Counted from the first letter of the stretch, positions 33,227-39,914 are shown. The stretch is DNA of 64,000 nucleotides from Anaerolineae bacterium (GCA_016926255.1 JAFGOY010000005.1:1-64000), one strand, 5' to 3'. A program made the numbers and translations. The notes: generated from the letters alone by a model not told the origin.

Positions 33227-34153
33227 TCACCCAGGCGGCGAGAGCCGGGGCCGCCAGGTGCTGGTCGGCTCGTGGAAATCGCCCACGCCGAGGATCACCT
33301 CATGATTTTTGTCGATATACTCGCGCAGCTCGGCGACCGCATCCGCATCGTATTCCGCATAATCACGATGGCTGCCCCGCCGCGCAAACAGGTGATCGTA
33401 GAGAATGCTGCGCCAGTGGGTCTTGTTGAGATAGTAATTCGGAACCGCCATGTAATAAACATCACCGACTGTCAGCAAGGCCGGAAGCTGGCTGTGGAGG
33501 GTCGGCTTGTTGTGGCTGATGAAGATATCGACGTGCCGGAGTGGGCGTCCATAATACGCCCGGCTGAGTTCGGCCCGATCCGGCACCTGGCCGCTTTCCT
33601 GAAACCGATCAACCAGGAACGGCGCGATCCCCGGCGGGAGCGGCTCCTCCTCGGAAAGCCAGATCATCCATCGATCATTTTCGGCGGTGGATTGCAGTTC
33701 CAACCGCTTGCATGCCTCGTACATATCGGAGATTTCGAGCTGTTCGAACACCTGCTTCCAGGCACCCCGGAACATCACCCCGATCCCGTGATCGGCATAA
33801 AGCTGCCGGGCCTCTTCCCCGGCGAGCATCCGCAGCGACTGCCCCAGGTTGGCGCTGTATTTTGCCGAACGCAGACGCTGCCCCGGCATCACCCCGACGA
33901 CAAAGAGCGTCCGCAGGCCATCCTGAAACATCAGGTCGGCGATCTCGACCGTCCGGTGCAGCCCCTTCAGGCTGTAATCGGCGAACTGCTCCACGCTGTC
34001 ATACCCGGCGGAGAATTCGCCGTATTCAAGAAAATACCAGCGGGAAGACCCCCCCGGAGAGAATACGACCGTCTTATCCTGGATCAACGGACTCACTTTT
34101 TCGGAAGGCCAGCTCAGAAATTCGTCTAGGGGTGGATGTGGTTCGCTGCTCAT
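33227..34153 (-). CDS. Terminal diterpene synthase, Rv3378c-like (cis-prenyltransferase fold)
   Basis: A 308-residue protein. By recall it lines up over its whole length with M. tuberculosis tuberculosinol/isotuberculosinol synthase Rv3378c: an LDEFLSWPSEKVSPL opening, FSPGGSSRWYFLEYGE at 31-46, YYGRPLRHVDIFISH, YYMAVPNYYLNKTHWRSILYDHLF (in parts) and VGDFHEPTSTW near the end. That enzyme removes diphosphate from a bicyclic diterpenyl diphosphate. It does not look like UppS (no HPDGNRRW, no C-terminal RxSxF). The Asp of the FDGTRRW motif (Asp34 in Rv3378c) is Gly34 here, while Arg38 and Trp39 stay. AGGAGTTTCGTA precedes the ATG. It ends the cyclase-Nudix-synthase operon. Confidence 0.85.
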   Translation of the reverse strand: MSSEPHPPLDEFLSWPSEKVSPLIQDKTVVFSPGGSSRWYFLEYGEFSAGYDSVEQFADYSLKGLHRTVEIADLMFQDGLRTLFVVGVMPGQRLRSAKYSANLGQSLRMLAGEEARQLYADHGIGVMFRGAWKQVFEQLEISDMYEACKRLELQSTAENDRWMIWLSEEEPLPPGIAPFLVDRFQESGQVPDRAELSRAYYGRPLRHVDIFISHNKPTLHSQLPALLTVGDVYYMAVPNYYLNKTHWRSILYDHLFARRGSHRDYAEYDADAVAELREYIDKNHEVILGVGDFHEPTSTWRPRLSPPG

Positions 34154-34190
34154 TACGAAACTCCTACTATCAGGCAGTAGTCAAGAAGCA

Positions 34191-34221
34191 AGTGCCGGGC
34201 AGCAAAATGCAACCCGGCACT
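34191..34221 (-). terminator. Hairpin between Nudix and diterpene synthase genes
   Basis: A 9-bp stem AGTGCCGGG/CCCGGCACT with a 13-base loop, 28 bases after the Nudix stop. No U-run follows on the - strand, so it may tune the mRNA level of the last gene (partial terminator or processing site) rather than stop transcription. Confidence 0.5.
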
Positions 34222-34248
34222 CACCAGGACCGGAACACCGGTAACACC

Positions 34249-34746
34249 TCAGGATTTAGGCTGCCCGCCGTTGCGAACACGCTCGAAGAGAGCGCCATAT
34301 GCCAGTGCAATATGCCCCAGCAAACGTTCAGGCAATGGAAGATCGATGGTTCGAACTCCGTCCGCTGGCCGATCGTCGACGACATCGGCTATGAAACGCC
34401 TGGCATCTTTGTACAACGTAAAGGGCAGTTTGTCCAGCGGGTACCAACCGACAGCCAATGTTTCAGGGCCAGACTCGATGGGTTCCCCACCGGTGACATG
34501 CGCCGCATAGACATGAATCATCTGCCCACCAACCGGCACCTGGGGGAGATGATACTGCCCGGTAAAGCGATCAATGGCGACCTCGTACCCGGTTTCTTCG
34601 AGCACTTCCCTGGCAGCGGCATTTTCCATCGATTCTTCCGGATCGATCCCTCCGCCGGGCAGTGCCCAGATGATTCCATAATCTCGACGGCGATGCAGCA
34701 AAACCTGATCGCCGTCAAGGACAACAACGGTAACAGTAGTTTTCAT
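34249..34746 (-). CDS. Nudix hydrolase inside the diterpene operon
   Basis: A 165-residue Nudix protein. The full Nudix box is present: GGIDPEESMENAAAREVLEE then TGYE, residues about 32-55, with all metal-binding Glu. The N-terminal MKTTVTVVVLDGDQVLLHRR is MutT-like. Nudix enzymes cleave X-linked diphosphates (NTPs, nucleotide sugars, sometimes prenyl diphosphates). It lies 36 bases after the class II cyclase stop and 95 bases before the Rv3378c-like gene, same strand, so a part in terpenyl diphosphate handling is an attractive inference, but a housekeeping sanitising role cannot be excluded. Confidence 0.9.
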   Translation of the reverse strand: MKTTVTVVVLDGDQVLLHRRRDYGIIWALPGGGIDPEESMENAAAREVLEETGYEVAIDRFTGQYHLPQVPVGGQMIHVYAAHVTGGEPIESGPETLAVGWYPLDKLPFTLYKDARRFIADVVDDRPADGVRTIDLPLPERLLGHIALAYGALFERVRNGGQPKS

Positions 34747-34782
34747 TCAAACTCTCTAACAGGACAGGCGCAGGCAGACCAA

Positions 34783-36294
34783 TCAGGCAGCCATTTCAAT
34801 AGACGCCATGTATCCCATTTCCTGCAACTTGGTTTTAGCGGCAAACAACGTCGCCTCGACAATGCCTTCAGGATGATACAGGGTTTTCCCGATCCACAGG
34901 CTTTCTTCAGGACCAGCCTCATCGACCTCGAGGAAATCGGCGGCACGTTCCAACACACCTTCATCTTCCAGCAGGCCATGTTCGAACGCCTGCGTCAAGG
35001 CTAACACACAATGGGAGGTTTCTTCCACTGTACTCCGGGAAAATCCCCACCCACCATCTTCATGCTGTTTTTCAACCAGATCAGACACACACAACTGGGC
35101 CATCTGATCATCGATACCGGCAAATGCCGTGACTGCATGCGATACCGAATACATCGGAGAGATATGCCATTTATCATCGAACAGCACATCTTTCTTCATC
35201 TGGGCACGCAGCCAACCGACCAGCGGATCGATCAAATTATGATGAGGACAACCCGGCTGAGAACGCAGAGCGGTCAGCGCGTGGATATTGACCGATGCCG
35301 ACGCGCCACGCTCGCCTTTGTATCCTGCGAAATGATCGCCATCCCAGAAATCCATCACCGCTTCATCGGATGGATCGCAGCCCGCCCAGTTCAGAACGGC
35401 AAACCCAACCAGCGTATCATCTGCATCGTTGACGAAGAACGTATCGCTGTAGGCCAGCCCAGGTTCGTGGGCATCCCACGAGGCACGAACATCATCGACA
35501 ATATCCTTGATATCCAGATCGTCCGGACTGAGACCGGCCCGCATCAGGCTGTCGAGCACCCAGACCCGCTCGAAAACTTCGAAAGGCCAGCCGACCGGCA
35601 CTGCCCCACCGCCGATCTCGATTACCTGCTGGAGGTACTCCGCCGCACGCGGCGAATCGGCACCAGCCCGGCGCTTGGCCATCAGGTAGGCGGCGGTCGC
35701 AGCGGTCGAGGTGGCAATCGCCCCCATCGCATCCAGGATTTTATCGTCGAACTGTCTGAGCTGTTCTTCCGGCAGCATTTCCATGCTGAACCACCAGGTT
35801 GCCTGCTGGAAGGGTTCCGGACGAAGGTTTTCGATCAATGCCAGTTTTTTACCATTCAGTTTATCGACATAGGCCCACTGATCGAGCGGCAGAGCATTAC
35901 CGAAACTGCTGACAGTATCTCTCCGCAGTGCCGGTAAGAGAAGCTCGAAGCCAATCGGCTCGTGTGGTTCGCCTTCCAATTTCGAAGCATACTGCCTGAG
36001 CGCGGCAAGGCCCTGTTCGACTCTGTAGCGGTCATCCGGTTCGGCCTGCCAGGTATACAAAGCCCGGATTGCCGCCAGTGTATTCAATGTACGCTCGTGA
36101 ACATAACACAACGCTTCCTCGCCCCACCCACCATCGTCGAGCTGGGTGTCTCGCAGGGTTTGAAGCGCTTCAGGCCAGGCCGGACAGTCTGGTTCAGCCA
36201 CCGATGGCACCAGCGCAACCCAGGCCGTGCTATACATATCCGAGCCTAACCATCCCCGTAAGTCATCGATCCACGCCGGACGCTTTTCAGTCAT
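34783..36294 (-). CDS. Class II diterpene cyclase (DxDD type), Rv3377c-like
   Basis: A 503-residue enzyme that should protonate geranylgeranyl diphosphate and close a bicyclic diterpenyl diphosphate (halimadienyl- or kolavenyl-type). The ATG is set by GGAGG 5 bases before it; the upstream GTG lacks a site. The acid motif DADD is at residues 290-293 in FVNDADDTLVGFAVL. Two QW-like repeats (LRDTQLDDGGWG near 47 and EKQHEDGGWGFS near 408), the opening SDMYSTAWVALVP and the end ESLWIGKTLYHPEGIVEA are those of Rv3377c and plant class II cyclases. No DDxxD class I site is seen. Length matches Rv3377c. No GGPP synthase gene is nearby. Confidence 0.9.
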   Translation of the reverse strand: MTEKRPAWIDDLRGWLGSDMYSTAWVALVPSVAEPDCPAWPEALQTLRDTQLDDGGWGEEALCYVHERTLNTLAAIRALYTWQAEPDDRYRVEQGLAALRQYASKLEGEPHEPIGFELLLPALRRDTVSSFGNALPLDQWAYVDKLNGKKLALIENLRPEPFQQATWWFSMEMLPEEQLRQFDDKILDAMGAIATSTAATAAYLMAKRRAGADSPRAAEYLQQVIEIGGGAVPVGWPFEVFERVWVLDSLMRAGLSPDDLDIKDIVDDVRASWDAHEPGLAYSDTFFVNDADDTLVGFAVLNWAGCDPSDEAVMDFWDGDHFAGYKGERGASASVNIHALTALRSQPGCPHHNLIDPLVGWLRAQMKKDVLFDDKWHISPMYSVSHAVTAFAGIDDQMAQLCVSDLVEKQHEDGGWGFSRSTVEETSHCVLALTQAFEHGLLEDEGVLERAADFLEVDEAGPEESLWIGKTLYHPEGIVEATLFAAKTKLQEMGYMASIEMAA

Positions 36295-36430: not shown

Positions 36431-36817
36431 TCAAGAAACGTCGTCTAGAGTCTGCTCCAGATCATGGACAAAAGTGCGCGAGTTAATGGGTTTAGGGAAA
36501 TAGGCCGCAAACCCGGCTTTCAGCGCTTCTTCCGCCACCGTAATCGAATGGAATGCCGTGATCGCCACTACCGGGATACGAGAAAGGAATGGGTCGTCCT
36601 GCATGGTCGCCAGCATATCCCAACCGTTCATTCCCGGCAGTCCCAGATCGACAACGGCCAGTGTAGGGCACTGCTCTTTGAGTTTGTCCAGCGCCTCTTC
36701 AGCTGTGAAGGCCGTGTCTACGGCGATGCTGTAATGCTCAAGAATAGGCACCAGAACCGCCTGAGCATCCTCTTCATCATCTACCAACAGTACATACCAA
36801 TTTGATAAATCCCGCAC
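36431..36817 (-). CDS. Stand-alone response regulator receiver
   Basis: A 128-residue receiver domain. A GTG start is chosen since AGGAGG sits 6 bases before it; an in-frame ATG further upstream would overlap the previous gene. Acidic pair in LVDDEED, acceptor Asp in AVVDLGLPGMNGW, Thr in ITAFH, Lys in YFPKPI. The spacing to the preceding receiver gene is 10 bases. It belongs to a kinase-receiver-receiver series and lies just upstream of the diterpene operon. Confidence 0.9.
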   Translation of the reverse strand: MRDLSNWYVLLVDDEEDAQAVLVPILEHYSIAVDTAFTAEEALDKLKEQCPTLAVVDLGLPGMNGWDMLATMQDDPFLSRIPVVAITAFHSITVAEEALKAGFAAYFPKPINSRTFVHDLEQTLDDVS

Positions 36818-36827
36818 AATACACCTC

Positions 36828-37220
36828 CTATGAAACACGTTCTAAACATTCAACCAGATCGTCTAGAAGCGTAAAGATAGCCAACGGTTTACTCATATAT
36901 CCCGCAAAACCCGCTCCGATGATCCGTTCCCGGTCGCCCAGCATGGCGTGAGCCGTCAGCGCGACTACCGGCACACTTGCCCCGTTCTTGCTTGCCTTGA
37001 TCTGCTTCAACATTTCCCAGCCATCCATCTCAGGCATGGAAATATCGCTCAAGACAAGTGTCGGATGCACACGTGAGAAGATATTCATGGCCTCTTTACC
37101 ATCACCCGCCTGGTAAACGGTCGCCCCGGCTGCACCGAGAACCATTTCGATTATCTCGATGCTGTCCGGCTCGTCATCGACAACCAGAACGCGCCATTCC
37201 GATAAATCTGGGCGATTCAT
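36828..37220 (-). CDS. Stand-alone response regulator receiver
   Basis: A 130-residue receiver domain, acceptor Asp in LVLSDISMPEMDGW, acidic pair in VVDDEPDS, Thr in ALTAHAM and Lys in YMSKPLA. The start is the ATG at 37220, right after the kinase stop at 37227; a TTG 3 bases upstream is possible. The near overlap with the kinase suggests translational coupling and a cognate pair. Confidence 0.9.
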   Translation of the reverse strand: MNRPDLSEWRVLVVDDEPDSIEIIEMVLGAAGATVYQAGDGKEAMNIFSRVHPTLVLSDISMPEMDGWEMLKQIKASKNGASVPVVALTAHAMLGDRERIIGAGFAGYMSKPLAIFTLLDDLVECLERVS

Positions 37221-37226
37221 CAAGTC

Positions 37227-38633
37227 CTATCCCTCTGGTTCGACGAACGGCAGTGTTACCGTAAACGTACTGCCTTCACCCGGCGCGCTGTCCACCCGGA
37301 CATTACCCTTCATCAACAGGGTCAGTTCTTTGACAATCGCCAGCCCCAGACCGGCCCCCATATACGCCCGCCTGGAAGTGCCGTCGACCTGCCGGAATTT
37401 ATCGAAAATGAACTCCTGGGCGTGCCGGGCGATACCTATGCCTGTATCGGCGACCTTGATACACCATTGATCCTCGTCGACCCGCTCCAGAGATACTTTG
37501 ATATGGCCCTCGTCGGTGAACTTCACCGCATTTCCGGCCAGGTTGATCATGATCCGTTCCAGCCGTTGAATATCCCCATACATCTTGGGAGGAAGGGCCG
37601 GGTCCGCTTCGGTGATGTAGGCAACATCTTTTTCAGCAGCCTGTGGTTCGATAACCCGTCTCACATTGTCCAGCAGGTCTTCCGGTTTGAATTCTGCCAC
37701 AATCAGGTCAACCCGGTTGGCCTCGATCCGGGAAATATCAAGCAGGTCGTCAATCAACGATAACAGCCGCTCGCTGTTGAAGTGGATTCGCTTGGTCGTA
37801 TGTCGAACTTTCTCGTCCATCGATCCCGCCAGCCCCATCAACATGACCTCAGCGAAACCGATGATGGCGTTAAGCGGCGTGCGCAGTTCGTGCGACATCG
37901 TCGCCAGGAACTCGCTTTTCAGCCGGTTTGCCTCCACCGCCTGCTTTACTGCCTGTTCCAGTTCACGCGACTGCCTCTCGATCTGCTGAATGTTCTGCTG
38001 GCGGATGCTGGCCGATACGATGATCAGGATCGACATGATGACGACGAAAATAAACGTGTTGGTTACCGCAGCGATGGTAATTTCCGGTGACAGCAGCGGC
38101 GGGATAAGCAGCACGATCAGGCTGTCAACAACAGCCAGGATCACCGTCCACATCAGCGGGAGCAGCAGGCTTGCCAGAAGCACGTCAAGGGCCAGATATC
38201 CCAGCATATCGGTTGCCGTTGCTGGGTCCTGAATCGCCGTGATGGTGGGAACGACAGCCACCGCAGCAACAGCAATGGCTGCACCGATGTTGTAGTGTTT
38301 AACCGAACGCGCCAGGAGATAAGCCACAATCAACAGCAGGTCAGCACCAATCAACACCAGGAAAATCGGGTTCTGCCATATTCCCGGGCTGAGCAGCAGT
38401 GACGGGTTGGCTAACGTCGAGACAACTACACCGACCAAACCCAGGGGGATGACCACCACCAGCAGCGATAGCAAGAAACGCATCTGGCGGCGCAGTTCTG
38501 CTCGCTTCACCTCTTCGGCAGGCTCGGTCAACTGACGCCAGATGCCCTGAATGGTTATTGGCTTTCTCGCTTTTACCTGACGCAAAGAAGCGCTTGTTTG
38601 CACACTCATTTCCTTAGTCCTTTTCTCATCCAT
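37227..38633 (-). CDS. Membrane-bound sensor histidine kinase
   Basis: A 468-residue kinase. A cytosolic N-terminus of about 45 residues is followed by about six hydrophobic segments (48-212) and a coiled coil (IQQIERQSRELEQAVKQAV). HisKA has the phospho-His in ATMSHELRTPLNAIIGFAE; the ATPase domain shows NLAGNAVKFTDEG, DTGIGIA and GAGLGLAIVKEL. The membrane part has short loops, so it may sense a membrane-borne or intracellular cue. It lies between receivers at 38640 and 36828 in one tight group, and that set probably forms a phosphorelay. Confidence 0.92.
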   Translation of the reverse strand: MDEKRTKEMSVQTSASLRQVKARKPITIQGIWRQLTEPAEEVKRAELRRQMRFLLSLLVVVIPLGLVGVVVSTLANPSLLLSPGIWQNPIFLVLIGADLLLIVAYLLARSVKHYNIGAAIAVAAVAVVPTITAIQDPATATDMLGYLALDVLLASLLLPLMWTVILAVVDSLIVLLIPPLLSPEITIAAVTNTFIFVVIMSILIIVSASIRQQNIQQIERQSRELEQAVKQAVEANRLKSEFLATMSHELRTPLNAIIGFAEVMLMGLAGSMDEKVRHTTKRIHFNSERLLSLIDDLLDISRIEANRVDLIVAEFKPEDLLDNVRRVIEPQAAEKDVAYITEADPALPPKMYGDIQRLERIMINLAGNAVKFTDEGHIKVSLERVDEDQWCIKVADTGIGIARHAQEFIFDKFRQVDGTSRRAYMGAGLGLAIVKELTLLMKGNVRVDSAPGEGSTFTVTLPFVEPEG

Positions 38634-38639
38634 CCCGTT

Positions 38640-39041
38640 CTACCCTAACAACGCGCGGTCGACCGGAACTTCATCCCCTAACACATCCAGAACCTTTCTT
38701 CGCAGGTCTGTCATCGACAGGCTGCCCTTCCGCAGCATCATCGAATAGGGGATTTTTAGCGCCTCAGCCTTTTCTCGCGTCACTTGTTGAGCAGTGAAAA
38801 TGATCACCGGCAGATCGGCTGTTCTTGGGTTTCCCCGCAGCTGTCTCATCACTGTTTCACCATCCAGGTAAGGCATGGTCAAATCGAGGATCACCAGCGA
38901 GGGAAGCTCTTTATTGATCAGGTTCAAGGCTTCAAATCCATCATAAGCCTGCCGAACAGGAACTCCCAACGTACCCAATATCAATCTTAGTATCTCTACA
39001 ACATCTCGGTTATCGTCAACAATAACAATATTTTTCTTCAT
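38640..39041 (-). CDS. Stand-alone response regulator receiver
   Basis: A 133-residue receiver domain with acidic pair VDDNRD, acceptor Asp in LVILDLTMPYLDGE, Thr in IIFTAQQ and a shifted C-terminal Lys/Arg in MMLRKGS where the usual KPF motif is lost. The changed end may alter phosphoryl transfer or signalling. GAGAAGGTTAATT precedes the ATG. It is 6 bases from the kinase start, and the first gene of the set. Confidence 0.88.
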   Translation of the reverse strand: MKKNIVIVDDNRDVVEILRLILGTLGVPVRQAYDGFEALNLINKELPSLVILDLTMPYLDGETVMRQLRGNPRTADLPVIIFTAQQVTREKAEALKIPYSMMLRKGSLSMTDLRRKVLDVLGDEVPVDRALLG

Positions 39042-39221: not shown

Positions 39222-39914
39222 CTATACCTGGGACACGAACCGGTATCCAATACCACGTTCGGTCACGATATAGCGGGGATTAGAAGGCTCAGGTTCAATG
39301 ATTTTCCTGAGCCGACCAACGTAGATTCGAACATACTGCGAATAGTCGTCTTGAATCGATTCAGACCACAACGTTTCGATGATATCGAGGGACGATACAA
39401 CATGGTTGATATTCCGGACAAGCAGGGAAAGCAACTGGTAATCGAGGAATGACAGCGTAACCCGCTGCCCGTCGACGACAACCTCTTCACGATGAAGATC
39501 AATCGTCAGGCGCTCGTCGACGTAGGCCACACGCCCTTTTCGCCACGAAACATCGACGCTACGCCGCAGCAGCGCCGTCAGGCGCGCTTTCAGAATGGTG
39601 GGGCGAATCGGTTTGAGGAGATAGTCATCCGCTCCCAGCCCCAGCCCGCGTATGATATCTTCTTCCTCCTGTGCCACCGACGAAATCATCAGGATCGGGA
39701 CGTTGGTGAACGACCGTATCTGCTGGCAGACATCCCAACCATTCATTCCCGGCAGCTGGATATCCAGGAGCACCACATCCGGATCGTAGCGCTTTATTTG
39801 CGCGATCCCATCAGCCCCGGTGCCGGAGGTAAAGACCTCGTACCCCTCGGATTCAAGATAAATGGTGATATATTCCTGAGTGTCCGGATCATCCTCGATA
39901 ATGGCTACTCGCAA
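39222..39914 (-). CDS. OmpR/PhoB-family response regulator
   Basis: A 230-residue DNA-binding regulator. Receiver in 1-120 (IEDDPD, acceptor in VVLLDIQLPGMNGW, Lys in LLKPIRP), winged helix in 130-230 (LTIDLHREEVVVDGQ, LSFLDYQLLSLLVR, YVRIYVGRLRKII, ERGIGYRF). A TTG start with AAGGGAAACGTTCG upstream. A terminator separates it from the kinase set at 36.8-39.0 kb, yet it is the nearest DNA-binding output and could take phosphate from that kinase. Confidence 0.92.
   Translation of the reverse strand: MRVAIIEDDPDTQEYITIYLESEGYEVFTSGTGADGIAQIKRYDPDVVLLDIQLPGMNGWDVCQQIRSFTNVPILMISSVAQEEEDIIRGLGLGADDYLLKPIRPTILKARLTALLRRSVDVSWRKGRVAYVDERLTIDLHREEVVVDGQRVTLSFLDYQLLSLLVRNINHVVSSLDIIETLWSESIQDDYSQYVRIYVGRLRKIIEPEPSNPRYIVTERGIGYRFVSQV

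Follow-up and report, generated by a model that had tools for sequence, protein, structure and literature searches.

A stretch of 64,000 nucleotides from an Anaerolineae bacterium (GCA_016926255.1 JAFGOY010000005.1:1-64000; the window in what follows) carries relatives of Rv3377c and Rv3378c, the enzyme pair that in Mycobacterium tuberculosis gives rise to tuberculosinol and 1-tuberculosinyladenosine. Which of the neighbouring genes belong with the pair in this bacterium, and what would its product be for? A sequence-only reading had described a minus-strand run of cyclase (36294-34783), Nudix hydrolase (34746-34249) and synthase (34153-33227), and had highlighted the Nudix gene that sits within the pair. 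The run exists, but the partner that is conserved is the membrane histidine kinase next to it, together with its response regulators (36431-39041). On a single strand, the genes are ordered OmpR-RR, RR, HK, RR, RR, CYC, Nudix, SYN (RR, response regulator; HK, histidine kinase), with the following features:

33227..34153, minus strand: predicted Rv3378c-type terpene synthase (SYN), cis-prenyltransferase fold, 308 aa (PDB 3wqk, E 1.9e-20)
34249..34746, minus strand: Nudix hydrolase, 165 aa, window-specific insertion (PF00293, E 1.6e-22, over cut-off)
34783..36294, minus strand: predicted class II diterpene cyclase (CYC), Rv3377c-like, 503 aa (PDB 6vpt match)
35416..35427, minus strand: DxDD acid motif, DADD, cyclase residues 290-293 (read directly from the sequence)
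36431..36838, minus strand: receiver-only response regulator (PF00072, E 1.5e-21)
36828..37223, minus strand: receiver-only response regulator (PF00072, E 1.6e-24)
37227..38633, minus strand: membrane histidine kinase, 468 aa (HisKA and HATPase_c over cut-off)
37971..38501, minus strand: predicted six-helix membrane sensor domain of the kinase (six long helices in the AlphaFold2 model)
38640..39041, minus strand: receiver-only response regulator (PF00072, E 1.4e-19)
39222..39914, minus strand: OmpR-type response regulator (Response_reg and Trans_reg_C)

The enzyme pair and the Nudix gene

All 13 PDB matches of the window cyclase are terpene cyclases or synthases, with Rv3377c (6vpt) the best; the alignment spans residues 15-488 (E 4.6e-50) and places the DADD of the window opposite the DCDT of Rv3377c. 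The presence of the DxDD motif and this near-full-length match bear out the earlier assignment to the class II cyclases. A grouping with squalene-hopene cyclases was checked and not found: the protein scores 24 bits against a model cut-off of 431 bits, and in the cyclase tree it is nested among the cyclases of related loci. By class, a class II diterpene cyclase is thus well supported from sequence, and a product from GGPP is predicted. Two related loci (L168 and L139) have two tandem cyclase genes in one operon, and the cyclase tree separates the two of L168 into different branches.

Residues 11-295 of the synthase align with Rv3378c, and no other protein is among its PDB sequence matches. 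An AlphaFold2 model (pLDDT 81) gives the same picture; its 14 best Foldseek matches in the PDB are all Rv3378c, with UppS-like enzymes well behind, and identity in the structural alignment is 22-24%. The end-to-end likeness to Rv3378c that had been proposed therefore stands as full-length homology with the same predicted fold. We rejected an assignment as UppS, since there is no Pfam Prenyltransf match and Rv3378c is ahead in both sequence and fold. The sole PF01255 gene of this genome (UppS) is separate and located elsewhere, as are two polyprenyl synthases, which makes a supply of GGPP plausible. Tyrosines Y51 and Y90 of Rv3378c, mutated in published crystal structures according to PDB titles, correspond to Y60 and Y99 of the window and are invariant in the family alignment. 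D34 of Rv3378c, at the position of the UppS-type catalytic aspartate, is replaced by G; because this position is likewise G in the Herpetosiphon-type synthases and N in most Anaerolineae members, it does not define the family, and the change is compatible with an active enzyme. R37 is S in the window synthase and its nearest relatives. Sequence and model together support well the class of Rv3378c-type terpene synthase, with a predicted product. In one related locus, the synthase gene overlaps at its 3' end with a streptomycin-adenylyltransferase-like gene (L055:10976-11968; PF04439, E 6e-38).

The window thus resembles Rv3377c/Rv3378c in both full-length enzymes, the synthase fold and the two tyrosine positions. 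Its proteins are distant in sequence, and it differs by D34 to G, R37 to S and DADD for DCDT, as well as by the neighbouring kinase, receivers and Nudix gene; in published descriptions the mycobacterial locus has other neighbours (PMC3470408, PMC11476799). The second known system is the kolavelool/O-methylkolavelool cluster of Herpetosiphon aurantiacus (Nakano et al. 2015, as cited in PMC8131916), which has a cyclase, a synthase and the same G at the D34 position. There, a methyltransferase follows and no Nudix gene is present, and the synthase of the window belongs to a different clade. In a genome that is a candidate H. aurantiacus (G110), a hybrid kinase and a receiver lie directly upstream of the pair, as a kinase and receivers do in the window. 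The kinship with both systems that had been proposed from the window alone is confirmed by homology.

By analogy with these enzymes, the cyclase would protonate GGPP via its DxDD motif to form a bicyclic diterpenyl diphosphate; the synthase would then ionise the diphosphate, and quenching of the cation by water or another acceptor would yield a hydrophobic diterpenoid. That this is a new diterpenoid, as had been suggested, is plausible from sequence.

The Nudix box is intact (GGIDPEESMENAAAREVLEETGY). The Nudix protein could strip phosphate from the bicyclic diphosphate as a required step, leaving a primary alcohol or a monophosphate as the real product. The gene does lie inside the run, the PDB matches include the geranyl diphosphate Nudix hydrolase of rose (6ypb, E 8.7e-7), and a HAD hydrolase occupies the equivalent slot in locus L090, indicating that phosphohydrolases joined such clusters more than once. 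We nevertheless consider a required step unlikely: nucleotide hydrolases rank better among the matches, the Rv3378c-type synthase itself removes the diphosphate, and a Nudix homologue within 400 bp of the pair was found in 0 of 98 non-redundant related loci. Across 60 related genomes, the closest relatives reach no more than ~47% identity and are located elsewhere. Of the linkage that had been proposed as a check in related genomes, the cyclase-synthase part therefore holds and the Nudix part does not; we rejected the Nudix gene as a conserved third member, and the cyclase-Nudix-synthase arrangement is local. The protein may be an accessory specific to this lineage that perhaps hydrolyses prenyl or bicyclic diphosphate left over by the pair.

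Kinase linkage across the Chloroflexota

Related loci were gathered by synthase or cyclase similarity alone, with the kinase left out of the selection. The synthase is present in 24 of 400 Chloroflexota genomes, and a relative of the cyclase in 20 of 61 near relatives. A scan of 84,980 species, with patterns derived from Chloroflexota and limited sampling of other phyla, returned 79 named loci, nearly all in Chloroflexota MAGs, plus Legionella erythra. Where enough flanking sequence is available, a histidine kinase lies within 3.5 kb of the pair in 71 of 73 cases; the fraction to be expected is 7% if the far flanks serve as reference, or 19% if the genome of the window does. At a distance of 1-2 kb from the pair there are 0.37 kinases per kb, versus 0.007 per kb far out in the flanks of these loci. 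Because the loci are related, a binomial figure would overstate this evidence, and the better argument is that the link is kept through several gene orders. These comprise SYN-CYC-HK-RR, the commonest (40 loci), as well as CYC-HK-RR-RR-SYN, HK-RR-CYC-SYN (Herpetosiphon-type) and HK-CYC-SYN. The kinase is on the strand of the cyclase in 69 of 70 cases.

Within 400 bp, the pair also has an ICMT-like methyltransferase (25 loci), a GT87 protein (13) or a sulfotransferase (9) as neighbours. These tailoring genes vary by lineage, which suggests a tailored family of products, while the kinase is the most constant neighbour. Two pairs (L128 and L147) have no nearby kinase, and three genomes (L203-L205) encode a canonical-sensor kinase and a receiver with no synthases nearby. 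Among the 400 genomes, the synthase occurs in 24, a match to the sensor-kinase profile in 24 and both in 21, a co-occurrence to be read knowing that the profile included some of these kinases and that the cut-off was picked after the gap was seen. The Legionella erythra locus (L147:10034-12524), a rare case outside the Chloroflexota, consists of a synthase gene and a convergent cyclase match that is broken across two frames.

Might the diterpene operon of the window be an ordinary one to which the nearby kinase cassette is unrelated? The genome (4.6 Mb) encodes 96 kinase ATPase domains, a gap of 136 bp separates the window cyclase from the receivers, and a paralogous OmpR-kinase-receiver cassette, 46-53% identical to that of the window, stands without diterpene genes on another contig (L211; C51, about 24-27 kb). 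Several observations nevertheless make mere adjacency quite improbable. The strand is identical throughout, and the same-family locus L056, which opens with the last part of a kinase (G2-box residues GGTGLGLSIV), continues with RR, RR, CYC and SYN and has no Nudix gene. Its first and second receivers are 44% and 39% identical to the window receivers at 36828..37223 and 36431..36838, respectively. Elsewhere the kinase is 10 bp upstream of the cyclase (L055) or next to the synthase (L052). The OmpR-type regulator is probably also part of the run, with a 180-bp gap that leaves its membership unsure. Promoter and terminator scans gave somewhat more sites than shuffled sequences and nothing usable.

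The membrane sensor and its possible ligand

In every kinase at the diterpene loci, 4-7 membrane helices are predicted ahead of the kinase core, in nearly all of them 5-6, and the AlphaFold2 model of the window sensor has six (pLDDT 86). The window sensor matches no Pfam sensor family; for 4 of 25 relatives, MASE6 comes up as a weak neighbour. Foldseek against the PDB gave no significant match; realignment of its candidates placed the membrane domains of adenylyl cyclases 9, 5 and 8, Rv1625c and the diguanylate cyclase ImcA best, with Z 10-13, values that support a shared fold and stop short of proof, as helical bundles can reach Z ~13 by chance. The sensor is accordingly predicted, on the model, to have the fold of the six-helix adenylyl cyclase membrane domains. 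It aligns with those of AC9, AC5, Rv1625c and ImcA over about 140-175 residues, and differs from them in sequence (about 10-16% identity) and in output domain. Adenylyl cyclase membrane domains have been reported as lipid receptors (PMC11606603, PMC12505454), and one can be replaced by the quorum-sensing receptor CqsS (PMC4821796).

One membrane architecture of kinases is associated with the pair in all groups; a single receptor family is not supported by the profile test, and we do not claim one over all operon types. The canonical Anaerolineae sensor profile recovered none of the diterpene-locus kinases of the window, of the Herpetosiphon-type or of the f92/f96 genomes, and in profile-profile comparison the canonical sensor relates to the window group only (E 5e-9). 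Three nearby proteins in the window's own genome (L212; contig C74, about 95-103 kb) resemble the six-helix sensor profile weakly and do not match a kinase. At two loci with a synthase and no nearby cyclase or kinase, proteins that begin with a hydrophobic membrane region and end in a STAS output domain take up the position beside the synthase: one overlaps it in L084 (4418-5398), and two lie beside it in L086 (7742-8689 and 10707-11678). The output module may thus switch from kinase to STAS while the membrane domain stays.

A kinase beside nearly every Chloroflexota pair suggests that the diterpene is a signal with its own receptor. The cyclase and synthase would form the biosynthetic half of a synthase-receptor unit, making a membrane-soluble diterpenoid from GGPP; this would enter the membrane and bind the six-helix sensor of the neighbouring kinase, altering how phosphoryl groups pass to the response regulators, most of which are receiver-only (median ORF 141 aa at diterpene loci). 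We give this reading a probability of about 0.5; the product, the ligand and the direction of signalling are what we infer from the observed gene content, homology, linkage and membrane architecture. Its layout has precedent in CqsA/CqsS, Lqs and Phc, in which a signal synthase gene likewise adjoins those of a multi-helix membrane histidine kinase and a response regulator. The likeness is one of gene layout; unlike the signal proposed here, theirs is not a terpene but a ketone or a fatty-acid ester. The misses of the sensor profile, the paralogous cassette, the two pairs without a kinase and the lone kinases of L203-L205 all count against sensing of the diterpenoid.

Its main rival is control of the operon by another cue: the two-component system would only time the making of the diterpenoid in response to membrane state or something else, and the compound would be a membrane lipid or a defensive product. 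Many biosynthetic clusters bring their own regulators, the window run includes an OmpR-type regulator, and the tailoring genes of some lineages fit an ordinary natural product. A simple pathway regulator is, on the other hand, less easy to reconcile with regulators that mostly consist of a receiver and have no DNA-binding domain, with a kinase that remains while the tailoring genes change, and with the tight operon of the commonest type, in which synthase, cyclase, kinase and receiver genes overlap or are 6 bp apart (L077). We regard timing by another cue as possible, if rather doubtful, and favour sensing of the diterpenoid by the adjacent kinase. The literature searched yielded no bacterial diterpenoid signalling system and no report in which enzymes of the Rv3377c/Rv3378c type are connected with sensor kinases.

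Where the tuberculosinol genes fall

The M. tuberculosis proteins, read from PDB alignments with their ends missing, are 49-50% (Rv3378c) and 55% (Rv3377c) identical to proteins of Anaerolineales. Each falls inside the Anaerolineales group in single-protein trees (support 98/98 and 99/100), and in a concatenated tree they join loci L137, L160 and L078 within it (100/99). A position outside the Anaerolineales is rejected by both proteins together (AU p 0.001), and not by the single proteins (AU p 0.10 and 0.07). The nearest relatives noted are L160, L137 and L078/L158, and in L160 and L078 a kinase adjoins the pair. These results suggest that Rv3377c/Rv3378c belong to an Anaerolineales branch; a closer, unsampled group may exist, as scan patterns drawn from Chloroflexota sampled the other phyla thinly. 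PMC11476799 describes failed searches for orthologs outside Mycobacteria and proposes, from base composition, a plant-associated plasmid as the source. A tblastn search of 72,556 plasmids returned no Rv3378c-like protein, so that a plasmid source was rejected within that set, which leaves unsampled plasmids uncovered.

Taken across the phylum, a tentative picture, which we hold to be somewhat less than even in likelihood, is one of diterpenoid signalling in which the pair makes a signal, a six-helix adenylyl-cyclase-like receptor (kinase or STAS) reads it and tailoring diversifies it; Rv3377c/Rv3378c would then be a captured Anaerolineales-type pair without the receptor. The placement of both Rv proteins makes the source of the tuberculosinol locus directly testable. 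Should the kinase read the product, diterpenes would serve as a chemical language in a phylum that is poorly understood, with a receptor fold that both bacteria and mammals are now recognised to use as a lipid receptor.
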